Shown here in pieces: positions 25,325 to 45,936 of a DNA stretch of 64,000 nucleotides. The stretch lies in assembly GCF_024266585.1 (NCBI RefSeq), contig NZ_CP100647.1:623001-687000 (forward strand), written 5' to 3'. The DNA comes from Xanthomonas sacchari (GTDB lineage: Bacteria > Pseudomonadota > Gammaproteobacteria > Xanthomonadales > Xanthomonadaceae). The position numbers and the translations under genes were made by a program. Each line of letters begins with the position of its first letter. Position 1 is the stretch's first letter. A model generated the notes under the pieces. That model worked only from the letters and a program-made list of their open reading frames with translations. It had not been told where the DNA came from and did no database searches.

Positions 25325-25449
25325 GCGCTACGCTCCGTTGGAGGAAAGCGTGAGTGTCGCGCTGCCTGCCTGGCACCGCCATGGCGATGCATCGGCGCAA
25401 GCGGCGGTTTTCCGATGAATCCACGGTGCATGACGAGGGGGCGAAGCGA

Positions 25450-25923
25450 GTGGCGGCGAAAACCTGGCGGGGCGATGCGCTGGATTACGCGATCCTGGAG
25501 GCGCTGCAGTGCGACGGCCGCATTGCCCTGGCGGCGCTGGGGCGGCGCATCGGCCTGTCGCAGCCGGCGATGTCCGAGCGCGTGCGCCGGCTCGAGGAAC
25601 AGGGCGTGATCACCGGCTACACCGCGCGTGTCGATCCGCGCGCGCTGGGCCTGGCGACCTCGGCGATCGTCCGCCTGCGCACCACGCATGCGCAGATCGG
25701 CGCGTGCCTGCAACTGTTCGCGCAGATGCCGCAGGTGCTGGACGTGCACCGGGTCACCGGCGAGGACTGCTTCGTGCTGCGCGTGCTGGTGCCTGCGCCG
25801 GCGCAACTGGAGCCGGTCATCGATGCCCTGGCGCGCTTCGGTGCGGTGACCACCAGCGTGGTGCTGCGCAGCGAGACGCCGCGCCCGATCGGCCGCGCGT
25901 TGCTGGCGTTGGCGGCGGAGTAG
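25450..25923 (+). CDS. Lrp/AsnC family transcriptional regulator
   Basis: About 157 residues from GTG 25450, which has GAGGGGG eight bases upstream and gives the usual family length; ATG 25381 or an even earlier GTG are possible. The N-terminal helix-turn-helix is LAALGRRIGLSQPAMSERVR followed by RLEEQGVITGYTA, then the Lrp ligand-binding RAM domain with VLDVHRVTGEDCFVLRVLVP. It probably responds to an amino acid and may control the divergent hydrolase gene. Confidence 0.88.
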   Translation: MAAKTWRGDALDYAILEALQCDGRIALAALGRRIGLSQPAMSERVRRLEEQGVITGYTARVDPRALGLATSAIVRLRTTHAQIGACLQLFAQMPQVLDVHRVTGEDCFVLRVLVPAPAQLEPVIDALARFGAVTTSVVLRSETPRPIGRALLALAAE

Positions 25924-26598: not shown

Positions 26599-26656
26599 GT
26601 GCGATAAACGCACTGCCAATCGATATTCGCACTTGAATGGTGCAGTGCGATAAAAC
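26599..26656 (+). promoter_or_regulatory. PcaR/PcaU-like operator cluster before the quinate operon
   Basis: Three related sequences: GTGCGATAAACGCAC (26599-26613), CGATATTCGCAC (26621-26632) and GTGCGATAAAAC (26645-26656). The first matches the PcaR-type box GTTCGATAATCGCAC (recalled from the protocatechuate regulators of the IclR family) at 13 of 15 positions; the second at 11 of 12 over its length. The 10-mer GTGCGATAAA is repeated 46 bp apart. They lie 110-167 bp before the start of the beta-helix gene. Confidence 0.55.
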
Positions 26657-26765
26657 TAGCGTTGCCGCTGTTCCGGCGCCTGGCAGCGCACGACGTGTGC
26701 GCAGATGGCCGCCGTGCCGTCGCCGCCCGCCGCCGGCGCGGTCCCGATTCTGTTGGAGATGGTGC

Positions 26766-28274
26766 ATGTCCTGTGCGTTTTCCCGCGGCCTGGCCCTGCT
26801 CGCGGCCCTGCTTCCCGGCGCCGTGCGCGCCTACCAGGCCGAGCCGGTGCCGCCGGCGCCCAGCGTGCTGACCGTGGACCGCTATGCCGACGACGATGCC
26901 CCGGGCTCCCTCCGCTGGGCGATCACCACCGCCAACCAGGCGCCCGGCCGCTACCGCATCGAGATCGCCGCGGTCGGCGCGCCGTCCTACGTGATCCGCC
27001 CGCGCGCGCCGTTGCCGGCGTTGCAGGGGCCGCTGCAGGTGGTCGGCCTGGCACGGGCGCACGACGGCCAGTACATCGCCATCGACGGCGCCGGCTACAT
27101 CCAGGGCAAGGGCACCGCCGCCTGCCCGGGCGCGGAGAAGGGCCAGTTCGGCACCAACGTGCGCAGCACCACGCTGCCCGGCCTGGTGCTGCGCGATACC
27201 CATGGCGTGGAGCTGAGCGGCCTGGAGATCCGCAACTTCTGCATCGGCGTGCTGATCAACCGCGCCAGCGACAATGTGCTGCGCGACAACCGCATCGTCG
27301 CCAACCACGGCGGCGCCGGGGTGATGCTGACCGGCGACGACGGCAACGGCCAGTCCACCGCCACCACCACGGTACGCAACCGCATCGTGCGCAACACCTT
27401 CCTCGACAACGGCGACGGCCTGGAACTGACCCGCGGCGCGGCCTGGAACCTGGTGGCCGACAACCTGTTCCACTCCACCGATGCCAACCCCGAGCCCTCG
27501 CAGGGCATCGAGATCCTGTGGGGCAACGACAACACCGTGCTGCGCAACCGGTTCGAGCGTTATTCCGACGGGCTGCAGATCAACTGGGGCAACCGCAACA
27601 CCATCGCCGACAACGACTTCGCCGGCAATTCGATCGGGGTCAGCGTCAGCGGCCGCGACAACCTGATCGAGGGCAACCGCCTGGTCGGCAACGGCATCGG
27701 CATCGCGGTGCGTCCGCAGCCGCGCAGCGAACCCAACCGGTTCAGCGCCAACCTGCTCTCCGGCAACGGCCTGAAGATCGAGCGCTGTTTCGCCGGCGGC
27801 GCCTGCGCACCGGGCCAGCCGCGCGGCGCCATCGTGTTCGGCGTGCCCGGCCTGGAACACGCGGCCTTCGTCGGCTCGCGCGGCATCGGCGTCGATCCGG
27901 ACCCGCGCAAGCGCGCGGCGATCTGCGGCGCCGCCGCCGCGGACGGCTGCCAGCCGCCGCCGAACTTCGGCCAGGCCGCCCCGCAGTTGCGCGCGATCGA
28001 ACGCGGCGCGGGCGTGCCGCAGGTGCAGGGGACCTTCACCGGCCGGCCCGGTCACCTGTACACGGTGGAACTGTTCGGCAACCGCCGCCCTGGCGACGAC
28101 GAAGCCGAACGCTATCTCGGCCGTGCCGAGGCGTCGGTGGATGCGCAGGGGCAGGGCCGCTTCGCGCTGCCGCTGGAGGCCGACAGCGCGGATCTGGCCA
28201 CGCTCACCGCCACCGTCACCAGCGACGATGGCGCGACCTCGCCGCTGAGCGCGCCGCTGGCGGTGGCGCCGTGA
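26766..28274 (+). CDS. secreted beta-helix protein, probable QuiC-like 3-dehydroshikimate dehydratase
   Basis: A 502-residue protein with a signal peptide (CAFSRGLALLAALLPGAVRA). Residues about 40-340 form right-handed beta-helix coils, seen as repeated N-x-(V/I)-x-x-N units such as DNVLRDNRIVANHGGAGVML and NRNTIADNDFAGNSIGVSVS. Other segments are DAPGSLRWAI and a Cys pair near 355. It heads an operon with an OprB porin and a periplasmic dehydroquinate dehydratase. In Acinetobacter quiBCXA the dehydroshikimate dehydratase QuiC is of similar length and, to my memory, the same fold. By context it would turn 3-dehydroshikimate into protocatechuate in the periplasm. The activity is inferred, not shown. 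Confidence 0.6.
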   Translation: MSCAFSRGLALLAALLPGAVRAYQAEPVPPAPSVLTVDRYADDDAPGSLRWAITTANQAPGRYRIEIAAVGAPSYVIRPRAPLPALQGPLQVVGLARAHDGQYIAIDGAGYIQGKGTAACPGAEKGQFGTNVRSTTLPGLVLRDTHGVELSGLEIRNFCIGVLINRASDNVLRDNRIVANHGGAGVMLTGDDGNGQSTATTTVRNRIVRNTFLDNGDGLELTRGAAWNLVADNLFHSTDANPEPSQGIEILWGNDNTVLRNRFERYSDGLQINWGNRNTIADNDFAGNSIGVSVSGRDNLIEGNRLVGNGIGIAVRPQPRSEPNRFSANLLSGNGLKIERCFAGGACAPGQPRGAIVFGVPGLEHAAFVGSRGIGVDPDPRKRAAICGAAAADGCQPPPNFGQAAPQLRAIERGAGVPQVQGTFTGRPGHLYTVELFGNRRPGDDEAERYLGRAEASVDAQGQGRFALPLEADSADLATLTATVTSDDGATSPLSAPLAVAP

Positions 28275-29599
28275 GCCGTGTCGCTCCCGCCGGCGCTCGC
28301 GCGGTGCGACGCCTGCCGTCGTTGCCGGTCTGGTCGCTGCTGGCCGCGGCCGTCGCCTTCGCCCCGTCCGGCGCCGCCGCGCAGGACGCCACCGACCTGG
28401 CGCACAGCACCTTCAGCGGCGACTGGGACGGCGTGCGCAGCGACTGGCTGCGGCGCGGCGTCAACGTGCGCGGCGACTATGTCGGCGAAGCCATGGGCCT
28501 GGTCGACGGCGGCCGCGGCGAGCGCGGCGCGCGCTATGCGCAGCAGGTGCGGATGGGCGTGGACCTGGACCTGGCGAAACTGGCCGGCTGGGACGGCGGC
28601 ACAGTGCATGTGACCCTCAACGACCGCCGCGGCCGCAGCACCTCGGCCGACCTGCTCGGCAACCGCTTCCCGATCCAGGAAGCCTACGGCGGCCAGTTCA
28701 CCCGGCTGACCGAACTGAGCTACGACCGCCGCTTCAACGACGGCCGTTCCTACGTCAAGGCCGGCTTCTATGCGATGGGCAACCAGTTCGGCGCGCACAC
28801 GCTGCTGACCAACTTCGTCAACGCCGCGTTCTGCGCGCATCCGCTGGCGATGTCCGGCAACAGCGGTTGGTACAACTATCCCAACGCGCGCTGGGGCGCG
28901 GAGGTGGCGCAGCAACTGACGCCGGCGGCGAACCTGCGGGTCGGCTGGTTCCAGGTCAATCCCCGCACCAACAACAACGTGCACACCGCGTTCGACCTGG
29001 CCGCGCGCGGCACCACCGGCTCGCTGTTCCCCGTGGAGCTGACCTGGACGCCGGGCGCCGGCGGCGCCTATCCGGGCACCTACAAGTTCGGCGGCTACTA
29101 CGACTCCTCGCGGGTGCCGCGCAAGGGCCTGGATCCGCGCGCCACCACCGGCCGCGACGGCGCCTACCTGCTGGTCGAACAGAAGCTTTACTCGCCCGGT
29201 GGCGAACGTGGGCGCGGCCTCACCGGCTTCGCCCAGTACATGGTGTCCGACCGCGCCACCGCGCAGATCACCCGCTGGTACGCGCTGGGCGGGGTGTACC
29301 AGGGCATCGGCCGGCGCAGCCAGGACCGCATCGCCCTGGGCTACGTCGGCGCCGACATCAACCATCGCCTGCTCGACGCGCGGCGCGCGGCGCTGCTCGA
29401 TGCCGGCGTGCCGCCGGACGCGCCGGTGTTCGCGCTCGACACCGCCGAGGAACTCTACGAACTGTCCTACAGCGCGCAGCTGACGCCGTGGCTGATGCTG
29501 CGGCCGGATGTGCAGTACATCGTCAACCCCGGCACCTTCGCCTATGCGCGCACCGACAACGCGCTGGCGGTGGGGCTGCAGGTCAAGCTCACCTTCTGA
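28271..29599 (+). CDS. OprB-type carbohydrate porin (QuiX-like)
   Basis: A 442-residue outer-membrane protein. The start is GTG 28271, overlapping the previous stop (GTGA). After a signal peptide (to GAAAQ) the protein has the OprB layout: FSGDWDGVRSDWLRRGVNVR at the N-terminus, aromatic-ended strands throughout, GGYYDSSRVPRK in the middle and VQYIVNPGTFAYARTDNALA before the terminal strand VGLQVKLTF. Ending in Phe is normal for BamA-inserted barrels. It probably lets quinate or shikimate into the periplasm. Acinetobacter QuiX is a related porin-like protein in the qui operon. Confidence 0.87.
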   Translation: MSRVAPAGARAVRRLPSLPVWSLLAAAVAFAPSGAAAQDATDLAHSTFSGDWDGVRSDWLRRGVNVRGDYVGEAMGLVDGGRGERGARYAQQVRMGVDLDLAKLAGWDGGTVHVTLNDRRGRSTSADLLGNRFPIQEAYGGQFTRLTELSYDRRFNDGRSYVKAGFYAMGNQFGAHTLLTNFVNAAFCAHPLAMSGNSGWYNYPNARWGAEVAQQLTPAANLRVGWFQVNPRTNNNVHTAFDLAARGTTGSLFPVELTWTPGAGGAYPGTYKFGGYYDSSRVPRKGLDPRATTGRDGAYLLVEQKLYSPGGERGRGLTGFAQYMVSDRATAQITRWYALGGVYQGIGRRSQDRIALGYVGADINHRLLDARRAALLDAGVPPDAPVFALDTAEELYELSYSAQLTPWLMLRPDVQYIVNPGTFAYARTDNALAVGLQVKLTF

Positions 29600-29636
29600 G
29601 CGCGCGCTGCGCGCCTCCTTGCCCAGGCCGATCCCG

Positions 29637-30542
29637 ATGCCCCTGTTTCCACCACGACTGATGTTCCTGTGCTGCGCCGGTCTGCTGCTGGCGTCGCCGT
29701 TGCAGGCCGCGCCCGCGGCGCTTCCGGCAGCGGCGCCCGCGTCAGCGCCCGCGGCGGCCCCGTTGCCGGCGCCGCAACTGCTGCAGATCCGCGGGCTCGC
29801 CATCGGCACCGGCCTGCCGAAGATCATCGTGCCGATCACCGCCCATGACGCCGAGCAGGCGCTGGCGCAGGCGCAGCGCATCGCCGCCTCGCCGGATGCG
29901 GACATGGCCGAATGGCGCATCGACCTGATGGACGGCGCCACCGACGCGGCGGCGCTGGCGGCATTGGGGCCGCGCCTGGCGCAGGCATTGCACGGCAAGC
30001 CGCTGCTGCTGACCTTCCGCACCAACGCCGAGGGCGGTGCGGTGCCGCTCGACGATGCCGCCTACGGCGCGCTGTACGCGCGGCTGCTGGACGCGCGCTT
30101 CGCCGACCTGCTCGACGTGGAGATGTTCCGCGACCCGGCGGTGGTGCGGCAGCTGGTGCAGCACGCGCACCGGCAAGGCGTGTACGTGGTGATGTCCAGC
30201 CACGACTTCCACGCCACCCCGCCGGTGGCCGAGATGGTGGCGCGGCTGCAGCGCCAGCAGGCGCTGGGCGCCGACGTGCTGAAGATCGCGGTGATGCCGC
30301 GCGACCCGGGCGACGTGCTGCATCTGCTCGACGCCACCTGGCAGATGCGCCAGCGCAGCGGCCAGCCGCTGCTGACCATGGCGATGGGGCCGCTGGGCGC
30401 GGTGTCGCGGCTGTCCGGCGGCACCTTCGGGCAGAGCCTGACCTTCGGCATGCTCGGCAGCGCCTCGGCGCCGGGGCAGATCGACGCGGTGCGGTTGCGG
30501 CAGGCGCTCGACGCGCTGCATGCCGCCGCGCCCCCCAAGTAA
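29637..30542 (+). CDS. periplasmic type I 3-dehydroquinate dehydratase (QuiB-like)
   Basis: A 301-residue protein. The first 25 residues (PRLMFLCCAGLLLASPLQAA) form a Sec signal peptide, followed by an Ala/Pro linker. The type I dehydroquinase domain (about 55-300) has EWRIDLMD, the catalytic His in VVMSSHDFHATP, the Schiff-base Lys in GADVLKIAVMPRD and the substrate-binding Arg in MGPLGAVSRLSGG, then LTFGMLGSASAPGQI. Biosynthetic AroD is cytoplasmic, so the signal peptide marks this as a catabolic enzyme making 3-dehydroshikimate from dehydroquinate in the periplasm. Confidence 0.88.
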   Translation: MPLFPPRLMFLCCAGLLLASPLQAAPAALPAAAPASAPAAAPLPAPQLLQIRGLAIGTGLPKIIVPITAHDAEQALAQAQRIAASPDADMAEWRIDLMDGATDAAALAALGPRLAQALHGKPLLLTFRTNAEGGAVPLDDAAYGALYARLLDARFADLLDVEMFRDPAVVRQLVQHAHRQGVYVVMSSHDFHATPPVAEMVARLQRQQALGADVLKIAVMPRDPGDVLHLLDATWQMRQRSGQPLLTMAMGPLGAVSRLSGGTFGQSLTFGMLGSASAPGQIDAVRLRQALDALHAAAPPK

Positions 30543-30590
30543 GCCCGCGACGCTGCGGTTCTCGTTCGCCGTTCTAGCAGGAGTGTTGCC

Positions 30591-31898
30591 ATGAGCCATG
30601 CCGCCGCCCCGCCCACCGCCCTGGTCCTGGAGCGCATGAGCGGTTTCCAGTGGACGGCCATTGCGGTCTGCGTGCTGTTGAACATGCTGGACGGGTTCGA
30701 CGTGATGGTGATGGCGTTCATCGCCCCGCACGTGTCGGAGGCCTGGCACTTGTCCGGCAAGCTGCTGGGGATCGCGCTCAGCGCCGGGCTGGTGGGCATG
30801 GCGCTGGGCTCGCTGCTGCTGGCGCCGCTGGCCGACCGCTGGGGCCGCCGCAACATGATCCTGTGCTGCCTGGCGATCCTGACCGTCGGCATGGCCGCCT
30901 CGGCGCTGGCGCAGAACATCTGGCAACTGGCCGTGCTGCGCGTGTTCACCGGCATCGGCATCGGCGGCATGCTTGCCGGCGTGGGCGTGATCACCGCCGA
31001 ATACGCAAGCCCGAAGTGGCGCAGCACCGCGGTTGCGCTGCAGGCCACCGGCTATCCCATCGGCGCCACGCTCGGCGGGCTGGTCGCCGCGGCGCTGCTG
31101 GAACGCTGGGGCTGGCACGCGGCCTTCCTGTTCGGCGCCCTCGCGTCGCTGCTGTGCATCCCGGTGGTGCTGGCGCTGCTGCCCGAATCGTTGGATTTCC
31201 TGCTCAGCCGGCGCCCGCCGGATGCGCTGGCGCGGCTCAACGCGCTGCTGGCGCGCATGCGCGCACCGACGCTGGACGCGCTGCCGCCGCGGCCGCCGGT
31301 GCAGGAGAAGGCGGGTTACGCGGCGCTGTTCACCCCGCGCCTGCGTCGCAACAGCGTGCTGATCGCGCTGGGCTTCTTCATGCACATGTTCGCCTTCTAC
31401 TTCGTGCTGAGCTGGACGCCCAAGCTGCTGGTGCAAGCCGGGCTGTCGGCCGAACAGGGCGTCACCGGCGGCGTGCTGCTGAACCTGGGCGGCATCGTCG
31501 GTGGCGCGGTGTTCGGCGCTCTGGCCGCACGCTTCGCGCTGCCGCGGTTGACCGCGGCCAGCTTCCTGATCGCCGCACTGGGGATGGTGGTGTTCGCCAC
31601 GCTGGGCGCGCAGCTGCAGCTGGCCTTCCCGGTGGCCTTCGTGATCGGCGCGGCGCTGTTCGGCTCGATGGCCGGCCTGTATGCGGTGGCGCCGATCGTG
31701 TTCGAGCCGACCGTGCGTACCACCGGCCTGGGCTGGGCGATCGGCATCGGCCGCGTCGGCGCGATCCTCTCGCCGATGACCGTCGGCGTGCTGGTCGACG
31801 CCGGCTGGCAGCCGGCCAATCTGTACTACGTGCTGGCGTTGCCGCTGCTGGTGGCCATTGCCGCGGTGTTGACGATGCGGCTGCAGCCAGCGCGTTGA
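30591..31898 (+). CDS. AAHS-type MFS importer for aromatic acids (PcaK-like)
   Basis: A 435-residue twelve-helix MFS protein starting MSHAAAPPTALVLERMSGFQ. The first helix has the aromatic-acid:H+ symporter signature MLDGFDVMVMAFIAP, and loop 2-3 has LADRWGRRNM. A stretch VLSWTPKLLVQAGLSAEQGV is also typical. It is the last gene of the quinate unit, 48 bp after the dehydratase gene, and would carry the periplasmic product (protocatechuate or dehydroshikimate) into the cytoplasm. Confidence 0.87.
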   Translation: MSHAAAPPTALVLERMSGFQWTAIAVCVLLNMLDGFDVMVMAFIAPHVSEAWHLSGKLLGIALSAGLVGMALGSLLLAPLADRWGRRNMILCCLAILTVGMAASALAQNIWQLAVLRVFTGIGIGGMLAGVGVITAEYASPKWRSTAVALQATGYPIGATLGGLVAAALLERWGWHAAFLFGALASLLCIPVVLALLPESLDFLLSRRPPDALARLNALLARMRAPTLDALPPRPPVQEKAGYAALFTPRLRRNSVLIALGFFMHMFAFYFVLSWTPKLLVQAGLSAEQGVTGGVLLNLGGIVGGAVFGALAARFALPRLTAASFLIAALGMVVFATLGAQLQLAFPVAFVIGAALFGSMAGLYAVAPIVFEPTVRTTGLGWAIGIGRVGAILSPMTVGVLVDAGWQPANLYYVLALPLLVAIAAVLTMRLQPAR

Positions 31899-32245
31899 AG
31901 CCAGGGCGACCCGCCGGGCGCGCGCTGCGCCAACCTCCGAGAACAACGCGCTTGACGGCGCTGGCGGTGCCGGCCTGGCCTGTGTCGCTCCCTCGGCGCC
32001 GCTGCCCGGCGCCGGGACCAATGTGGCGGCGGTGACGTTCGGCGACCACCAATTCCAGCGCTGGACGGGCACTGCAGGCGCCGTGTGCTGGCACCGTGCC
32101 AGCGTCGCGCATCTGCCCCCCACCTTCCGGATCCTCGGACGTGGTGGGCATGGAACTTGTGCGTTCTCGGTGCCCGGCATCGCGGTGCCGGCCACCATGC
32201 TGCGCCCGGTCGAGGCGCCCTGAGGCCCCAAGGACGCGGGGCCAG

Positions 32246-32274
32246 CCATTGCCACCGCGCGCGGGTGGCAATGG
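32246..32274. terminator. bidirectional stem-loop between convergent quinate units
   Basis: A perfect 11-bp stem CCATTGCCACC / GGTGGCAATGG with a 7-nt loop, between the importer gene (ending 31898) and quiA (ending 32287). There is no long T-run on either side, so termination strength is uncertain. The rest of the 388-bp gap (31899-32286) has no credible gene; one plus-strand frame ending at 32223 lacks protein character. Confidence 0.5.
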
Positions 32275-32286
32275 TGCGGCGTGTTC

Positions 32287-34716
32287 CTACTTGGCGTCCG
32301 GCAGCGCGTAGGCGATCACGTAGTCGCCGCGGTCCGGCGACTGCCGCGCGCCGCCGGCGGTGATCACCACGTACTGCTTGCCGTTCTTGGCCGAGAGGTA
32401 GGTCATCGGCCCGCCCTGGCTGCCCACCGGCAGCCGCGCCTTCCACAGTTCCTTGCCGGTGCCGCTGTCGTAGGCGCGCAGGTAGTAGTCCTGGGTGCCG
32501 GCGATGAACACCAGGCCGCTCTGGGTGACCAGGGTGCCGCCCAGGGTCGGCATGCCGATCGGAATCGGCAGGTGCATCTTGAAGCCGAGCGGGCCGGTGT
32601 CCTGCACCGTGCCCACCGGCACCTGCCAGGCGATGCGGCGGGTCTTCAGGTCGATCGCGCTGAGCGTGCCGAACGGCGGCGCCTGGCAGGGGATGCCCAG
32701 CGCCGACAGGAAGCGGTTCTTGTTGACCGCGTACGGCGTGCCCTTCAGCGGCACCGCGCCCATGCCGGTGTTGACCGCCTCGCCGCCGCTGGAGGCGGCC
32801 GCCTTCTCGGCCTTCTGCGGGATCATCTGCACCCACAGGCCCAGGCGCATGTCGTTGGCGAACACCACGTCGTGCACCGGGTCGACCGACAGGCCGCCCC
32901 AGTTCATGCCGCCCAGCGAGCCGGGGAAACTCAGCGACACGTCGGTGCCGGGCGCGGTGTACAGGCCTTCGTAGCGCATCTTCTTGAAGGCGATGCGGCA
33001 CAGCATCTGGTCCAGCAGGGTGGCGCCCCACATGTCCGCTTCGCGCAGGTGCTTGGTGCCGATCTGCGGCATGCCCACCGACAGCGGTTGGGTCAGCGCA
33101 TACGGTTCGTGCGGGATGTCGGCGGCCTTGACCGGCACCTCGCGGACGTCGGTCAGCGGCCTGCCGGTGGCGCGGTCGAGCACGTACAGCTGGCCGGCCT
33201 TGGTGCCGATGATCAGCGCCGGCACGCGGCGGCCGTCGGCCATCGGGAAGTCGATCAGGCTCGGCTGCATCGGCAGGTCGAAGTCCCACAGGTCGTTGTG
33301 CACGGTCTGGTAGACCCACTTGACCTTGCCGGTGCTGGCGTCCAGCGCGGTGATCGAAGCGCCGAAGCGGTGGTCCAGCGCGGTGCGCTCGGCGCCGTAC
33401 AGGTCGGTGGACGGGCTGCCCATCGGCAGGAACACGGTGTTGGAGGCGGCGTCGTAGGACATCGGCGCCCACACGTTGGGGGTGCTGCGCACATAGGTCT
33501 TGCCCGGCGCCGGCGGCTGCGTGTCCTGCGGGTTGCCGGGATCGAACGCCCAGCGCTGCGCGCCGGTGATCACGTCGAAGCCGCGGATCACGCCGCCGGG
33601 CATGTCGGCTTGCACGTTATCGGCGACGCGGCCGCCGACCACCACCGTGGTCCCGGCCACGGTCGGCGCCGAGGTCAACTGGTAGAACGGATCCGGCGCG
33701 GCGCCGAGGCCGGCTTTCAGGTCGACCTGGCCGTTCTGGCCGAAGCCGGTGCAGAACGCGCCGGTGTCCGCGTCCAGCGCGATCAGCCGCGCGTCGATGG
33801 TGTTGGTCAGCACGCGCCGCCGGCAGTTCGCGCCGGCCGGCAGCACCGCCGCCGCCACCGGCGACGCGTTGGCGGCGCTGGGCTGGGCCAGCGCCGCGTC
33901 GGCATCGAAGTAGGCCAGGCCGCGGCAGCGCTGCCAGACCGAGGACTGCGCATTGATCTCGCGCTTCCACAGTTGCCGGCCGCTGCTGGCGTCCAGCGCA
34001 ATGACGTTGTTGTGCGGGGTGCACACGAACAGTGTCTCGCCGATCTGCAGCGGGGTGGTCTGGTCCTCGGCGCCGTTGCCGTCGCTGACGGCGATGTCGC
34101 CGGTGCGGTAGGTCCAGGCCACCTGCAACTGGTCGACGTTGCCGCGGCCGATCTGGTCCAGCGCGGCGAAACGGCTGCCGCCGGCGGTGTTGCCGTAGTG
34201 GCTCCAGTCGCGTTGCGCCTGCGCCGGGGTCACCGGCACCGGCGCCGGTCCGGGGCCGCTGGCGACCACCGGCGGATGCGGCACGAACATGCCGGCCAGG
34301 CCGCCGGCGCAGGCCAGCGCCAGCACCGCCGCCAGCGCATAGGCGCCGCGGCCCCCGGGCAGGCCGCGGGCGCGGCGCAGGGTCGGGTAGGCGAGGGCGA
34401 CCAGCAGCGCCAGCACCGCCGGCATCATCAGCCGCGACACCAGCGGCCAGAACGCCAGGCCGGCGTCCCAGTACGCCCAGGCCACGCTCAGTACGAAGGC
34501 CAGCGCGTACAGCCAGGCGCCGGCCGGGCGCCGCCGCAGCACCAGCAGCGCCGCGGCCACGCAGGCCGCGCCCATCGCCAGGAAGTAGACGCTGCCGCCG
34601 AGCGTGGCCAGGCGGATGCCGCCGACCAGCAGCGCCAGCCCGATCAGCGCCAGCAGCAGGCCGACGCTCCACAGCACGATCCGGCCGCCGGCCGACACAT
34701 CCGATTGGGTTTGCAC
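32287..34716 (-). CDS. quiA: membrane PQQ-dependent quinate/shikimate dehydrogenase
   Basis: An 809-residue protein from GTG 34716 (AGAGGA upstream); longer in-frame starts exist but add non-membrane sequence. The first 140 residues have five membrane helices (IVLWSVGLLLALIGLALLVG and following), as in the glucose/quinate/shikimate dehydrogenase family. The PQQ beta-propeller has DWSHYGNTAGGSRFAALDQI, TPHNNVIALDASSGRQLWKR, WVYQTVHNDLWDFDLPMQPS and MNWGGLSVDPVHDVVFANDM. It oxidises quinate to dehydroquinate on the periplasmic side and feeds ubiquinone. Glucose as substrate cannot be excluded from sequence, but the neighbouring genes point to quinate. Confidence 0.85.
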   Translation of the reverse strand: MQTQSDVSAGGRIVLWSVGLLLALIGLALLVGGIRLATLGGSVYFLAMGAACVAAALLVLRRRPAGAWLYALAFVLSVAWAYWDAGLAFWPLVSRLMMPAVLALLVALAYPTLRRARGLPGGRGAYALAAVLALACAGGLAGMFVPHPPVVASGPGPAPVPVTPAQAQRDWSHYGNTAGGSRFAALDQIGRGNVDQLQVAWTYRTGDIAVSDGNGAEDQTTPLQIGETLFVCTPHNNVIALDASSGRQLWKREINAQSSVWQRCRGLAYFDADAALAQPSAANASPVAAAVLPAGANCRRRVLTNTIDARLIALDADTGAFCTGFGQNGQVDLKAGLGAAPDPFYQLTSAPTVAGTTVVVGGRVADNVQADMPGGVIRGFDVITGAQRWAFDPGNPQDTQPPAPGKTYVRSTPNVWAPMSYDAASNTVFLPMGSPSTDLYGAERTALDHRFGASITALDASTGKVKWVYQTVHNDLWDFDLPMQPSLIDFPMADGRRVPALIIGTKAGQLYVLDRATGRPLTDVREVPVKAADIPHEPYALTQPLSVGMPQIGTKHLREADMWGATLLDQMLCRIAFKKMRYEGLYTAPGTDVSLSFPGSLGGMNWGGLSVDPVHDVVFANDMRLGLWVQMIPQKAEKAAASSGGEAVNTGMGAVPLKGTPYAVNKNRFLSALGIPCQAPPFGTLSAIDLKTRRIAWQVPVGTVQDTGPLGFKMHLPIPIGMPTLGGTLVTQSGLVFIAGTQDYYLRAYDSGTGKELWKARLPVGSQGGPMTYLSAKNGKQYVVITAGGARQSPDRGDYVIAYALPDAK

Positions 34717-34830
34717 GTTTTCGATCCTCTGCAGGGTAGGCGCGCGGCGCCCGCGGCCGGCCACGACGGCGGCGAGGACGGGGTGTGCGCACGATGGCAT
34801 GCCGCGGCCCGGAAGCACGTCGACAACGTG

Positions 34831-34863
34831 GGCGATTATCGCATTTGTGTTCGGTAATAGAAC
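34831..34863 (-). promoter_or_regulatory. PcaR/PcaU-like boxes before quiA
   Basis: GGCGATTATCGCA at 34831-34843 resembles the reverse complement of the PcaR-type box, and GTTCGGTAATAGAAC at 34849-34863 matches GTTCGATAATCGCAC at 12 of 15 positions. They lie about 115-150 bp upstream of quiA, in the gap shared with the divergent RND efflux operon. The gap (34717-35012) has no gene. Confidence 0.45.
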
Positions 34864-35012: not shown

Positions 35013-36203
35013 ATGTCCGACCTCCTGATGGCGCCTCGTCGTCCCGTTCGCTGTGCCCTGTTGCTGGCCATTGCCGTGGCCGGAGGCTGCTCCGGCGACA
35101 AGCCGGCGGCCGCGCCGCCGCCGCGGGTGGGGGTGCTGACCCTGGGGGCGCATACCCTGCCGGTGGAGCGCACCCTGGCCGGCCGCACCGTGGCCTACGA
35201 GACCGCCGACGTGCGCCCTCAGGTCGGCGGGCTGCTGCGCCAGCGCCTGTTCCAGGAGGGGCAGGAGGTCAAGGCCGGGCAGCCGCTGTACCTGATCGAT
35301 CCGGCGCCGTACCAGGCCGCCTACGACATCGCCCGCGGCAACCTGGTGCAGGCCGAGGCGGCGCTGGCCAGCGCGCGGCCCAAGGCCGAGCGCACCCGCA
35401 CCCTCACCGACATGGACGCGGCCAGCAAGCAGGACGCCGACGACGCCCTGTCCGCCCTGCGCCAGGACGAGGCCGCGGTGGTCGCGGCCAAGGCGGCGCT
35501 GCAGGCGGCGCGGATCAACCTCGACTACACCCGCATCACCGCGCCGATCTCCGGCACCATCGGCACCTCCGCCTACACCGTCGGCGCGCTGCTCACCGCC
35601 GCGCAGGACGCGGCGCTGACCACCATCCAGCGGCTGGACCCGATCTACCTGGACGTCACCCAGTCCAGCACGCAGATGCTGGCGCTGCGCCGCCAGCTCG
35701 ATGCCGGGCAGATCCACGCCATCGACGGCAAGGCGCAGGTCAAGGTGCGATTGGAGGACGGCAGCACCTATCCGCACGCCGGCACCCTCGAGTTCGTCGG
35801 CACCCAGGTCAACGCCGGCACCGGCAACGTCACCCTGCGCGCGGTGGTGCCCAATCCCGAGCACCTGCTGCTGCCGGGCATGTACCTGCGCGCGGTGCTG
35901 CCGATGGCCACCGACCAGGGCGCGGTGCTGGTGCCGCAGCAGGCGGTGACCCGCGACAGCAAGGGCGAGCCGCTGGTCAAGCTGCTCGACGCGCAGAACA
36001 AGGTGGTGGAGCGCCACATCCGCACCGGCGAGGCGATCGGCCACGACTGGGTGGTGGAGTCCGGGCTCAAGCCGGGCGAGCGCCTGATCGTGGTCAACGG
36101 CAGCCGCGCCGAACTCGGCAAGCCGGCGCAGCCGTATCCGGTCACCGCCGCCCAACTCGATGCCGCGCCGGCGCTGCCGGGCGACGACGCCCAGGCCGAC
36201 TGA
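35013..36203 (+). CDS. RND efflux periplasmic adaptor (AcrA/MexA type), lipoprotein
   Basis: A 396-residue protein with lipobox AVAGGC (Cys25). The mature chain has the barrel-sandwich start (RTLAGRTVAYETADVRPQVG), a helical hairpin with QDADDALSALRQDEAAVVAA, then NLDYTRITAPISGTIGTSAY, and the beta-barrel and membrane-proximal domains. It joins the RND pump to the outer-membrane channel. It is the first gene of a three-gene operon diverging from quiA; no regulator gene is adjacent. Confidence 0.92.
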   Translation: MSDLLMAPRRPVRCALLLAIAVAGGCSGDKPAAAPPPRVGVLTLGAHTLPVERTLAGRTVAYETADVRPQVGGLLRQRLFQEGQEVKAGQPLYLIDPAPYQAAYDIARGNLVQAEAALASARPKAERTRTLTDMDAASKQDADDALSALRQDEAAVVAAKAALQAARINLDYTRITAPISGTIGTSAYTVGALLTAAQDAALTTIQRLDPIYLDVTQSSTQMLALRRQLDAGQIHAIDGKAQVKVRLEDGSTYPHAGTLEFVGTQVNAGTGNVTLRAVVPNPEHLLLPGMYLRAVLPMATDQGAVLVPQQAVTRDSKGEPLVKLLDAQNKVVERHIRTGEAIGHDWVVESGLKPGERLIVVNGSRAELGKPAQPYPVTAAQLDAAPALPGDDAQAD

Positions 36204-36213
36204 GGACTCCCGC

Positions 36214-39200
36214 ATGTCGCGCTTCTTCGTCAACCACCCGGTGGTGGCCTGGGTCATGGCCATCGTCATCGTCCTGATCGGCATGCTGGCCATCCATGGG
36301 CTGCCGGTCGAACGCTATCCGCACATGGCGCCGCCCACCATCACCGTGCGCGCCACCTACACCGGCGCCTCGGCGCAGACGGTGGAAAACACCGTCACCC
36401 AGCTGATCGAGCAGTCGCAGCAGAGCCTGGACCACCTGCTGTACATGACCTCCACCAGCGCCTCGGACGGCACCGCGCAGGTCAACCTGGTGTTCGAGAC
36501 CGGCACCAACGCCGACACCGCGCAGGTGCAGGTGCAGAACCAGTTGCAGTCGGTGATGTCGGTGTTGCCGCAGGCGGTGCAGCAGAACGGCCTGGTCATC
36601 ACCAAGTCCAGCGGCTCGCTGTTCGAGGTGGTGGCGTTCACCTCCGACGACGGCAGCATGGACAACTTCGATGTCGCCAACTACATGGAATCGAACATCG
36701 ACGACCAGATCAGCCGCGTCAGCGGCGTCGGCAACATCCAGCCGCTGGGCTCGGAATACGCCATGCGCATCTGGCTGGACCCGGAGAAGCTGCGCAAGTA
36801 CGCGCTGATGCCGTCCGATGTGGAGAACGCGCTGCAGTCGCAGAACACCGACGTGTCCGCCGGCGAGATCGGCGGCCAGCCGGCGCTGCGCGGGCAGCGC
36901 CTGGACGCCACCGTGACCACCCGCAGCCGCCTGCAGACCCCGGCCCAGTTCGGCGCCATCGTGCTCAAGAGCGATGCCAGCGGCGCGGCCGTGCGCCTGT
37001 CGGATGTGGCCACCATCGGTCTGGGCCCGGAGACCTACGACAGCATCACCCGCTTCAACGGCAAGCCCTCGGCCTCGCTGGGCATCGAGCTCAACTCCGA
37101 CGCCAACGCGGTGGAGACCTCCGAGGCGATCGAGAAGCGCCTGCAGGAACTCAAGCAGTACTGGCCGCACGGCTACAACTACCACATCGCCTTCAGCACC
37201 ACGCCGTTCGTCACCACCTCGATCAAGGAGGTGGTGATCACCCTGATCGAGGCGGTGCTGCTGGTGGTGGCGGTGATGTACCTGTTCCTGCAGAACTGGC
37301 GCGCCACGCTGATCCCGACCATCGCCGTGCCGGTGGTGCTGATGGGCACCTTCGGCGTGCTCGCCGCGTTCGGCTATTCGATCAACACCCTGACCATGTT
37401 CGCGATGGTGCTGGCGATCGGCCTGCTGGTCGACGACGCCATCGTGGTGGTGGAGAACGTGGAGCGGGTCATGGGCCAGGAAGGCCTGCCGCCGAAGGAA
37501 GCCACGCTGCGCTCGATGCAGCAGATCGGCGGCGCCCTGGTCGGCATCGTGCTGGTGCTGACCGCGGTGTTCGTGCCGATGGCGTTCTTCAACGGCGTCA
37601 CCGGCGTGATCTACCGGCAGTTCTCGATCACCATCGCCGCCTCGATGATCCTGTCGGTGCTGGTGGCGATGACCCTGACCCCGGCGCTGTGCGTGACCAT
37701 CCTCAAGCCGCTGCACCAGGGCGAGGCGCCGATCGGCTCGCACGGCCGCCTGGGCTGGTTCTTCGTCTGGTTCAACACCCGCTTCCGGCACCTGTCCGAG
37801 CGCTACCGCGCGCTGGTCGAGCGGGTGCTGGGGCGGCGCGCGCTGGGCCTGATCGCCTACGCGCTGCTGCTCGCGGTCACCGGGCTGTTGCTGTGGCGCC
37901 TGCCCGGTGCGTTCCTGCCCGACGAGGACGAGGGCATGCTCAACGTGCTGGTCAAGCTGCCGGCCGGCTCCACCCTGGAGCAGACCCTGGCGGTGACCGA
38001 CCGGCTGACCAAGGCCGCGCTGAAGGACCCGGGCGTGCGCTCGGTGCTGTCCTCGGCCGGCTTCAGTGTCACCGGCGCCGGCCAGAACGTCGGCATGGCC
38101 TTCATCCGCCTGAAGGACTGGGACGACCGCGACGACGACGCGGCGACCATCGCCGATCATCTGAACAAGGCGCTGGCCGACGTGCCGGATGCGGAACTGT
38201 TCGTGACCTCGCCGCCGGCGATCACCGGCCTGGGCGACGCCTCCGGCTTCACCTTCGAGCTGATGGACTACGAAGGCGCCGGCCATGCCGCCCTGGTCGC
38301 CGCGCGCGACAAGCTGCTGCGCCTGGCCCAGCACGATCCCAAGCTGATGAACGTGCGCTACGCCAGCCTGGAGGACGCGCCGGTGTATGCGGTGAAGATC
38401 GACGACGCCAAGGCGCAGGCGCTGGGCGTGGACCCGGGCGACATCAACGCCACGCTCAACAGCGCGCTCGGCGGCGACTTCGTCAACAACTTCATCTACA
38501 AGGGCCGCATCAAGAAGGTCTTCGTCCAGGGCGATGCGCAGGCGCGCATGGCGCCGCAGGATCTGGACCGCTGGACGGTGCGCAACAGCGGCGGCGACAT
38601 GGTGCCGATGTCGTCCTTCACCCGCTCGCACTGGACCAGCGCGCCGGCCGCGCTGGAACGCTACAACGGCGTGTCGGCGATGGAACTGACCGGCCAGGCG
38701 GTGCCCGGGGTCAGCTCCGGCGCGGCGATGGACGAGATGGCCGAACTGAGCAAGCAGCTGCCGCACGGCTTCGGCTACGCGTGGTCGGACATGGCCTACC
38801 AGGAGAAGCTGTCGGCCAACCAGGCACCGGCGCTGTACGCGATCTCGCTGCTGTTCGTGTTCCTGTGCCTGGTGGCGCTGTACGAGAGCTGGTCGATCCC
38901 GTTCGCGGTGATGCTGGCGGTGCCGGTGGGCGTGTTCGGCGCGGTGCTGCTGATGACCCTGCGTGGTCTGGAGAACGACGTGTACTTCCAGGTGGGCCTG
39001 CTGACCACGGTGGGCCTGGCGGCGAAGAACGGCATCCTCATCGTCGAGTTCGCGCGCGACCTCGAACACCGCGGCGAAAGCCTGCTGGCCGCCACCCTGC
39101 ACGCGGTGCAGATGCGCCTGCGGCCGATCCTGATGACCTCGCTGGCGTTCCTGCTCGGCGTGCTGCCGCTGGTGTTCAGCAAGGGCGCCGGCTCGGCCGC

Positions 39201-39342
39201 GCGGCACTCGCTGGGCACCGGCGTCACCGGCGGCACCCTGGCCTCGATCACCCTGGGCCTGTTCTTCGTGCCGCTGTTCTACGTGATCGTGCGGCGGCTG
39301 TTCCCCGGCCGCCCGGCCGCCACCGAGGAGGTGCAGGCATGA
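36214..39342 (+). CDS. RND family multidrug efflux permease (AcrB/MexB type)
   Basis: A 1042-residue inner-membrane pump starting MSRFFVNHPVVAWVMAIVIV (usual HAE1 length about 1030-1050). The proton-relay Asp pair is in AIGLLVDDAIVVVENVERVM (TM4) and the TM10 Lys in TTVGLAAKNGILIVEFARDL. The signature DxxxDxxM-like loop and the ALCVTILKPL segment are present. It exports hydrophobic or amphipathic compounds; the substrate is not readable. It lies 10 bp after the adaptor gene. Confidence 0.95.
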   Translation: MSRFFVNHPVVAWVMAIVIVLIGMLAIHGLPVERYPHMAPPTITVRATYTGASAQTVENTVTQLIEQSQQSLDHLLYMTSTSASDGTAQVNLVFETGTNADTAQVQVQNQLQSVMSVLPQAVQQNGLVITKSSGSLFEVVAFTSDDGSMDNFDVANYMESNIDDQISRVSGVGNIQPLGSEYAMRIWLDPEKLRKYALMPSDVENALQSQNTDVSAGEIGGQPALRGQRLDATVTTRSRLQTPAQFGAIVLKSDASGAAVRLSDVATIGLGPETYDSITRFNGKPSASLGIELNSDANAVETSEAIEKRLQELKQYWPHGYNYHIAFSTTPFVTTSIKEVVITLIEAVLLVVAVMYLFLQNWRATLIPTIAVPVVLMGTFGVLAAFGYSINTLTMFAMVLAIGLLVDDAIVVVENVERVMGQEGLPPKEATLRSMQQIGGALVGIVLVLTAVFVPMAFFNGVTGVIYRQFSITIAASMILSVLVAMTLTPALCVTILKPLHQGEAPIGSHGRLGWFFVWFNTRFRHLSERYRALVERVLGRRALGLIAYALLLAVTGLLLWRLPGAFLPDEDEGMLNVLVKLPAGSTLEQTLAVTDRLTKAALKDPGVRSVLSSAGFSVTGAGQNVGMAFIRLKDWDDRDDDAATIADHLNKALADVPDAELFVTSPPAITGLGDASGFTFELMDYEGAGHAALVAARDKLLRLAQHDPKLMNVRYASLEDAPVYAVKIDDAKAQALGVDPGDINATLNSALGGDFVNNFIYKGRIKKVFVQGDAQARMAPQDLDRWTVRNSGGDMVPMSSFTRSHWTSAPAALERYNGVSAMELTGQAVPGVSSGAAMDEMAELSKQLPHGFGYAWSDMAYQEKLSANQAPALYAISLLFVFLCLVALYESWSIPFAVMLAVPVGVFGAVLLMTLRGLENDVYFQVGLLTTVGLAAKNGILIVEFARDLEHRGESLLAATLHAVQMRLRPILMTSLAFLLGVLPLVFSKGAGSAARHSLGTGVTGGTLASITLGLFFVPLFYVIVRRLFPGRPAATEEVQA

Positions 39343-40781
39343 GCGCCGTCTCGCGCATGAGCGTGGCGGCGGCCACGCTGCTCGTCCTGGCCGGCTGCAC
39401 CCTGGCGCCGACCTACCAGCGTCCGGTGGCGCCGGTGCCGGCCGACCTGGCCGCGGCCGATGCGGCGCCGGCCGCCGGCGCCGCCACCGACACCCTGGCG
39501 ATGCCGGACTGGCAGCAGGTGTTCCTGGATCCGCGGTTGCGCCAGACCATCGCGCTGGCCCTGCAGAACAACCGCGACCTGCGCGTGGCGATGCTGTCTA
39601 TCGACAAGGCGCGCGCGCAGTACCGCATCCAGCGCGCCGCGCAGCTGCCCTCGTTCGATGCCAGCGCCAGCATGAGCCGCGGCCGCAGCAGCGCCGCCAG
39701 CAATGACGATGGCGTCTCCCAGCTCTCCACCAACGACGCCGTCCAGGTCGGCCTGAGCAGCTGGCAGCTGGACCTGTTCGGGCAACTGCGCAGCCTCAAC
39801 CAGGAGGCCCTGCAGAACTGGCTGTCCAGCGCCGAGAACCAGCGCAGCGTGCGCCTGAGCCTGGTCGCCCAGGTCGCCGCGGCGTGGCTGACCGTGGGCG
39901 CGGACCAGGAACAACTGGCGCTGGCGCAGCAGACCCTGGACAGCCAGGCGCAGACCCTGCAACTGACCGAGCGCCAGCATGGCGTCGGCAGCGTGTCGGG
40001 GCTGGACCTGGCGCAGCAGCAGACCAGCGTGGCGTCGGCGCGGGTCGCCGTGGCCAGCGCCGCCACCCAGTTGGCGCAGGCGCGCGATGCGCTGCAGCTG
40101 CTGGTCGGCGCGCCGGTGGAGGCGGCACTGTTGCCGACGGCGCAGGCGCTGCAGGACAGTGTCGTGCTGGCGCCGCTGCCGGCGCACCTGTCCTCGGCGG
40201 TGTTGCTGCAGCGTCCGGACGTGCTCGCCGCCGAGCACAGCCTGCAGGCGGCCAATGCCGACATCGGCGCCGCGCGCGCGGCATTTTTCCCCTCGCTGAG
40301 CCTGACCGCGTCGACCGGCCGCAGCAGCGATGCGCTGTCGACGCTGTTCTCGGCCGGCAGCCGCACCTGGTCGTTCGTGCCCAGCATCACCGCGCCGATC
40401 TTCCACGCCGGCGCGCTGAAGGCCTCGCTGGACGCGTCCAAGCTCGGCAAGGACATCGCCGTGGCGCAGTACGAGAAGGCGATCCAGTCGGCCTTCGCCG
40501 AAGTGGCCGACGCCCTGGCCGCGCGCGACCATCTGCAGGCGCAGCTGAGCGCGCAGCAGGCCCTGGTCGACGCCAGCCAGCGCAGCTATACCCTGGCCGA
40601 CGCGCGCTATCGCGCCGGCCTGGACGGTCACTTGCCGGTGCTGGATGCGCAGCGGTCGCTGTTTGCCGCGCAGCAGGCGCTGATCGCGCTGCGCCTGCAG
40701 GACGCCAGCAACCGGGTGACCCTGTACCAGGTGCTCGGCGGCGGTGCCGACGCCCAGGCCCAGGCCGCGGCCGCGCCCTGA
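39339..40781 (+). CDS. outer-membrane efflux lipoprotein (OprM/NodT family)
   Basis: A 480-residue protein with lipobox LVLAGC, then CTLAPTYQRP, the standard start of the OprM group. Two outer-membrane-efflux repeats follow, with LALQNNRDLRVAML and the second repeat segment LLQRPDVLAAEHSLQAANAD and AARAAFFPSLSLTASTG. Its ATG overlaps the pump stop (ATGA). It completes the tripartite pump with the two genes before it. Confidence 0.93.
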   Translation: MSAVSRMSVAAATLLVLAGCTLAPTYQRPVAPVPADLAAADAAPAAGAATDTLAMPDWQQVFLDPRLRQTIALALQNNRDLRVAMLSIDKARAQYRIQRAAQLPSFDASASMSRGRSSAASNDDGVSQLSTNDAVQVGLSSWQLDLFGQLRSLNQEALQNWLSSAENQRSVRLSLVAQVAAAWLTVGADQEQLALAQQTLDSQAQTLQLTERQHGVGSVSGLDLAQQQTSVASARVAVASAATQLAQARDALQLLVGAPVEAALLPTAQALQDSVVLAPLPAHLSSAVLLQRPDVLAAEHSLQAANADIGAARAAFFPSLSLTASTGRSSDALSTLFSAGSRTWSFVPSITAPIFHAGALKASLDASKLGKDIAVAQYEKAIQSAFAEVADALAARDHLQAQLSAQQALVDASQRSYTLADARYRAGLDGHLPVLDAQRSLFAAQQALIALRLQDASNRVTLYQVLGGGADAQAQAAAAP

Positions 40782-45719: not shown

Positions 45720-45880
45720 GCAGATTTGGGCCTCAAGTTGGCACGCAATCTGCAGATATTCCCACTGCACCCAACGTGGCAATGCGTCAGGGGCGTATGA
45801 CTGGAATTGGAACAGGGGCCAGTCACGCGCACGTTGGGGGAGCTGGGGGCCGGTAGTCGGGGGACTACCGGCCCTTTTTT
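45720..45880 (+). ncRNA. candidate small RNA upstream of mnmG, reading away from it
   Basis: The 511-bp gap 45623-46133 has no convincing gene but has a strong plus-strand terminator at 45847-45880. No plus-strand coding gene lies before it. Upstream, TGCAGATT (45720-45727) and AATCTGCA (45747-45754) form a stem, so the transcript would be structured. The 5' end is not defined: no clean -35/-10 pair was found. It could also be the 3' end of an unseen small mRNA. Confidence 0.4.
45847..45880 (+). terminator. strong intrinsic terminator
   Basis: An 11-bp stem GGGCCGGTAGT / ACTACCGGCCC, a 6-nt G-rich loop and six T in a row. This is the best-formed terminator seen in the window. It can only serve a rightward transcript starting after the mnmG promoter region. 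Confidence 0.85.
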
Positions 45881-45936
45881 ATGCCCGTTTTCCGCCGCCG
45901 GCCGGCGCGCGCGCCAGCAACGACAAGGCCCCAACG

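Follow-up and report, generated by a model that had tools for sequence, protein, structure and literature searches.

Can a protein with a beta-helix fold be the dehydratase of a periplasmic route from quinate and shikimate to protocatechuate? The question is raised by five genes in a 64,000-nt stretch of the Xanthomonas sacchari genome (contig NZ_CP100647.1, positions 623,001 to 687,000; hereafter the window, to which feature coordinates refer), the whole genome being a single contig of 4.89 Mb. The genes almost certainly form a locus of the Acinetobacter type for breaking down quinate and shikimate in the periplasm, with quiA, quiB, quiC and quiX all present together, and the beta-helix protein, QuiC, is an orthologue of a solved 3-dehydroshikimate dehydratase. 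This orthology, the fold, the gene families, the linkage and the presence in the genome of pca-type genes, pqqC and aroQ are established. The cluster is real, but of an already known kind, and its wider biology is known from Acinetobacter. All five genes are open frames within 26599..34863:

26766..28274, + strand: quiC, probable exported right-handed beta-helix 3-dehydroshikimate dehydratase of 502 aa; signal-like N-terminus MSCAFSRGLALLAALLPGAVRA
28271..29599, + strand: quiX, OprB-family outer-membrane porin; GTG start; PF04966, 297.1 bits (cut-off 22.9); 28% identity to Acinetobacter baumannii QuiX
29637..30542, + strand: quiB, probable exported type I 3-dehydroquinate dehydratase; TIGR01093, 220.6 bits (cut-off 139.3); 51% identity to A. 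baumannii QuiB over 238 aa
30591..31898, + strand: major facilitator superfamily (MFS) gene of the aromatic acid/H+ symporter (AAHS) type, probable protocatechuate/aromatic acid importer; TIGR00895, 352.9 bits (below the cut-off of 418.55)
32287..34818, - strand: quiA, membrane-bound dehydrogenase dependent on pyrroloquinoline quinone (PQQ), probably for quinate/shikimate; TIGR03074, 1085.5 bits (cut-off 832.65); start codon not settled

The stop codon of quiC and the start codon of quiX overlap in the sequence GTGA, and gaps of 37 nt and 48 nt separate quiX from quiB and quiB from the MFS gene. quiA is convergent and ends 388 nt past the MFS gene. A first-pass annotation of the window had read these five genes as one route, with three of them following the order of Acinetobacter quiBCXA, rearranged, and the porin as QuiX; the open frames, the family scans (with the MFS protein below the AAHS cut-off) and the order found here, C-X-B-MFS followed by convergent quiA, bear this out. 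It had also called the locus complete, which holds from quinate to protocatechuate only, as the genes for ring cleavage lie outside the window, some 95 kb away.

The beta-helix protein QuiC

The beta-helix gene had been singled out as the main unknown of the locus on the grounds that dehydroshikimate dehydratases are usually triosephosphate isomerase (TIM) barrels. Its product is a relative of Acinetobacter QuiC and of PDB entry 8WM1, a solved 3-dehydroshikimate dehydratase, over its full length (51.5% identity over 466 aa, E 6.8e-148). 8WM1 is the sole PDB sequence match of the window protein at E <= 0.001, and the predicted beta-helix superposes on it and on folds of the pectate-lyase type. 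A TIM-barrel dehydratase fold was considered and rejected, the predicted fold being a beta-helix. The structure is public, with a release date of 2024-10-02. We take Acinetobacter QuiC to be a member of the class termed 'bacterial membrane-associated', which is described in passages that do not name Acinetobacter. In those passages, dehydroshikimate dehydratases fall into four classes, of which this is one (PMC7442255, PMC9324987); it is set apart there as structurally distinct, the other three being TIM barrels (PMC9324987). The expectation of a TIM barrel was therefore sound as a rule, with a known exception. As the class is named in print and a structure is deposited, the beta-helix gene no longer counts as the unknown of the locus.

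Export of QuiC is probable. By a crude hydrophobicity test, an N-terminal hydrophobic stretch is present in 79 of 81 QuiC proteins (that of the window and those of the 80 loci described below); in the two exceptions, L016 and L017, an upstream ATG was probably taken as the start. A stricter 19-residue test found no hydrophobic stretch in the window QuiC or QuiX.

Across the same 81 proteins, 98 alignment columns are invariant, six cysteines among them, and no lysine or histidine is; the closest is H365, conserved in 79. In the model, the segments DNGDGLELTRG, PEPSQGIEILWGND and ERYSDGLQINWGNRN each coincide with a strand (217-221, 246-251 and 268-276), and by the repeat pattern the three strands would stack with E220, E249 and Q271 in register. 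Judging from conservation and strand register, these residues may line the active site. In the bolder reading given further below, the site would consist of invariant carboxylate and amide residues stacked on successive rungs (E220, E249 and Q271; D217, Q246 and D268), together with the invariant R133, R166, R223, R277, R316 and R372 and Tyr111, perhaps arranged around a metal ion. The other folds nearest to the QuiC model are headed by enzymes that act on uronic acid polymers, and such enzymes remove a proton next to a carboxylate; it is because of this likeness that a chemistry common to them and to QuiC is plausible.

Partner genes and the proposed pathway

The hydrophobic, signal-like stretch at the N-terminus of QuiB, together with its family score, agrees with the earlier call of a type I dehydroquinase with a signal peptide. 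The call of a membrane PQQ quinate dehydrogenase is likewise in keeping with the score of QuiA against TIGR03074, the family of membrane PQQ glucose/quinate/shikimate dehydrogenases. Four hydrophobic stretches above threshold lie in the N-terminal region of QuiA, and three homologues with 38-44% identity occur elsewhere in the genome. Two observations speak for quinate/shikimate over glucose as the substrate: QuiA co-occurs with QuiC, and it is homologous to the QuiA frame of A. baumannii, with 50.7% identity across 456 aa. In one A. baumannii locus (L004:11815-13224), the quiA frame stops at 469 aa, as against a much longer match in most Acinetobacter loci. The MFS protein is called AAHS-type because TIGR00895 is its best-scoring model, albeit below cut-off. 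Of the earlier proposal that it is an AAHS importer for the product, the family thus stands with that reservation, while the substrate is suggested by family and linkage.

We infer the catalytic activities, the localisation and the substrates of transporter and porin in the following scheme. The OprB porin QuiX would let quinate and shikimate through the outer membrane. QuiA, acting on the periplasmic side of the inner membrane, would oxidize quinate to 3-dehydroquinate and shikimate to 3-dehydroshikimate, passing electrons to the quinone pool; this chemistry and electron route are those of its family. Exported QuiB would dehydrate dehydroquinate to dehydroshikimate, and exported beta-helix QuiC would convert dehydroshikimate to protocatechuate, which the AAHS-type symporter would carry into the cytoplasm for degradation by PcaHG and the other enzymes of the beta-ketoadipate route. 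Periplasmic steps would keep the catabolic intermediates apart from the cytoplasmic shikimate pathway, which has a separate type II dehydroquinase. Part of the dehydroshikimate derived from quinate does enter the cytoplasm in strain ADP1, according to a passage of PMC4213383.

The rest of the pathway can be found in the genome. Homologues of pcaI, pcaJ, pcaF, pcaH, pcaG, pcaB and pcaD, whose products share 41-68% identity with their A. baumannii counterparts, follow one another in this order at 548618-554850 of the contig (C1), 95 kb before quiC (649763); the pcaHG pair is confirmed by PF00775. The qui and pca genes are not contiguous in this genome. A type II dehydroquinase (aroQ) is present, with a second, weak PF01220 match also above cut-off, as is pqqC; no second type I dehydroquinase occurs in the genome, quiB being the only PF01487 match. 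These three observations fit a division between cytoplasmic synthesis and periplasmic breakdown. A two-domain dehydratase of the QuiC1 type was looked for and rejected, as the only PF14696 match in the genome is a frame of 454 aa, which is too short; this search did not extend to single-domain TIM-barrel dehydratases.

Divergent from quiA, a gene for an efflux adaptor of the resistance-nodulation-division (RND) type (TIGR01730) opens a stretch (35013-40781, + strand) whose next frames resemble, by eye, an outer-membrane factor and a pump of the RND type. Further on, positions 45768-45881 (+ strand) match asX1, a small RNA of Xanthomonadaceae (117.8 bits).

Distribution, variant routes and alternative readings

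A scan of genome contigs confirmed 125 relatives of QuiC, the closest named ones being those of Xanthomonas sp. F10 and NCPPB 1128 (94-95% identity), and the loci of the best 80 of the 125 were analysed. With neighbours called at an identity of at least 40% over at least 100 residues, the fetched flanks hold quiB in 62 of the 80 loci, quiX in 61, quiA in 43 and pcaHG in 53; quiC, quiB and quiX occur together in 60. The 80 loci are not independent, since many are from Acinetobacter. Among 100 whole genomes (our own and 99 relatives), QuiC is present in 11, ten of which belong to one genus. QuiA matches of at least 58% identity occur only in the same 11 genomes, the next best match being 49%, and in four of them (G001, G014, G015 and G020) quiA is not adjacent to quiC.

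Whole-genome searches covered 24 of the 37 loci whose flanks lack quiA (all but L018-L027, L046, L059 and L079). A QuiA match of at least 57% was found in 12 of these genomes and a type I dehydroquinase in eight. Six Pseudomonas genomes (L028, L029, L031, L033, L034 and L045) and two of Caulobacter (L072 and L091) combine QuiA, at 58-71% identity, with no type I dehydroquinase match. Each of these eight QuiA matches contains a single stop codon, which closes the match in all eight (8/8) and therefore marks where the gene naturally ends. As oxidation of shikimate gives dehydroshikimate directly, these genomes may use shikimate only. In the reverse case, G108, G113, G114 and G115 have a type I dehydroquinase and no QuiA match of at least 57%. 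Type II dehydroquinases match in 15 of the 16 genomes without type I; that an exported one replaces QuiB was considered and rejected, as inspection by eye of the readable frames, which covered 19 of the 21 loci (all but L118 and L125), found no clear signal peptide before the GPN motif.

Other arrangements were noticed among the loci. In Rouxiella (L039:5960-8793) and Sodalis (L041:6134-8960, with a DUF554 gene in between), quiC follows UbiD-family and UbiX-family genes, and L044:6401-8852 looks similar by eye. The best model of the UbiD-family gene in the first two is VdcC, at 452-457 bits (below the cut-off of 650). This arrangement suggests decarboxylation of protocatechuate to catechol and a possible route from dehydroshikimate to catechol. 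In Azotobacter beijerinckii DSM 378 (L035:8956-11319, + strand), one uninterrupted frame of 787 codons joins QuiC, as its first part, to a type I dehydroquinase domain. The fusion was found in one of four Azotobacter genomes and in one of 248 genomes of the family set, in the same single draft assembly both times; the search of the family set used a limit of 1e-100 and up to four candidates per genome in the rows shown, so that split fusions or weaker matches may have escaped it. A carboxylesterase gene (PF00135) adjoins quiC at L060:10389-12050 (- strand), and similar-looking genes were seen by eye in L091 and L095; perhaps the esterase releases quinate from esters of the chlorogenate type.

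Several findings weigh against a locus of the Acinetobacter type. QuiX and the MFS protein are only 28% and 31% identical to A. baumannii QuiX and PcaK, respectively, and the MFS protein falls short of the cut-offs both of TIGR00895 and of the PcaK model NF053517 (200.8 of 770 bits). The flanks of 17 of the 80 loci lack quiB, quiX and quiA alike; these loci come from Pseudomonas, Caulobacter or Caulobacterales, Psychrobacter and two Enterobacterales. Among the 24 genomes searched whole, 12 are without a QuiA match of at least 57%, and in 16 no type I dehydroquinase was found. The nearest regulator gene noticed is of the Lrp/AsnC type and lies past a carbonic-anhydrase-like gene, at 25354-25923; no wider search for one that controls the locus was made. 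Finally, family models give QuiC as a generic beta-helix only: the best Pfam model is PF13229 (Beta_helix, 66.7 bits), and the Pfam NosD model PF05048 is also passed (61.8 bits, cut-off 23.6). We take both as matches to shared beta-helix repeats, PF13229 being the higher-scoring. NosD proper was rejected, as TIGR04247 scores 51.2 bits, far below its cut-off of 300, although the broad Pfam cut-off is exceeded.

Could the beta-helix protein then be a polysaccharide lyase, epimerase or hydrolase, similar to pectate lyases, that lies beside quinate genes by chance? The fold is held in common with such enzymes, the Pfam and NCBIfam models return one weak polygalacturonase match beside those to generic beta-helix and NosD-type families, and the A. 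baumannii QuiC homologue matches a GH110 glycosidase (E 0.00043). However, no solved polysaccharide lyase matches the window QuiC at E <= 0.001 (PL6 reaches E 0.19-0.3), and Acinetobacter QuiC and 8WM1 match it far better than does any polysaccharide enzyme in the PDB, a comparison that formed one half of the test by which the first-pass annotation had proposed that its own suggestion be judged. The idea is hardly credible, and the polysaccharide-lyase reading is ruled out by the sequence and structure comparisons. It is improbable, too, that shikimate or dehydroshikimate, and not quinate, is the main substrate of the locus, with QuiB as an accessory. QuiA and QuiC would suffice for shikimate, as the eight genomes with QuiA and no type I dehydroquinase suggest, but quiB is present here, and its signal-like N-terminus and its identity to the Acinetobacter enzyme indicate that quinate can be processed as well; nor are the two uses exclusive. 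The shortfall of the MFS protein against both models leaves more room for import of quinate, shikimate or another aromatic acid instead of protocatechuate, which we nevertheless consider unlikely. With QuiA and exported dehydratases, quinate need not cross the inner membrane, and in Stenotrophomonas and Pseudoxanthomonas (L019-L027) the MFS homologue has quiB on one side and pcaI on the other, pcaHG lying beyond pcaI.

The reading of a periplasmic quinate/shikimate locus invites a bolder one, which we offer tentatively and do not quite favour. In QuiC, dehydration of dehydroshikimate could have arisen independently on the beta-helix scaffold of alginate epimerases and lyases, without a conserved lysine or histidine base and through reuse of that scaffold's abstraction of a proton beside a carbonyl or carboxylate and elimination of the beta group; some lineages would have shortened the route to QuiA and QuiC, for shikimate only, or fused the two dehydratases. 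Apart from this bolder reading, the locus shows a small-molecule dehydratase of plant-acid breakdown built on a fold whose other known examples are mostly polysaccharide enzymes. The QuiC family is unnamed by the Pfam and NCBIfam models tried here, and correct naming would make quinate/shikimate use predictable in genomes of Xanthomonas, Stenotrophomonas, Pseudomonas, Caulobacter and Acinetobacter, all of which are among the QuiC relatives.

Comparison with known systems

A literature search returned no paper linking a dehydroshikimate dehydratase with a beta-helix and none on 8WM1 or quiBCXA; most subscription journals lay outside it, so the fold is not thereby undescribed. Judged by title, none of the papers returned deals with a Xanthomonas quinate locus.

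The closest known system is the pca-qui cluster of Acinetobacter (quiBCXA), which has the same type I dehydroquinase with a signal-like N-terminus, beta-helix QuiC, OprB porin QuiX and membrane PQQ enzyme QuiA. The locus described here differs from it in gene order, in its convergent quiA, in the distance of its pca genes and in the low similarity of its MFS protein to PcaK. About half of the residues of the window QuiC differ from those of 8WM1. The qui-pca loci of Stenotrophomonas and Pseudoxanthomonas share the order C-X-B-MFS and have a QuiC of 68-73% identity, but their pca genes follow directly and the fetched flank holds no quiA. The TIM-barrel dehydroshikimate dehydratases (AsbF, Qa-4 and QuiC1/QsuB) are metal-dependent and cytoplasmic. 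They have the overall reaction in common with QuiC, but their fold, in the passage of PMC9324987 cited above, is unrelated.
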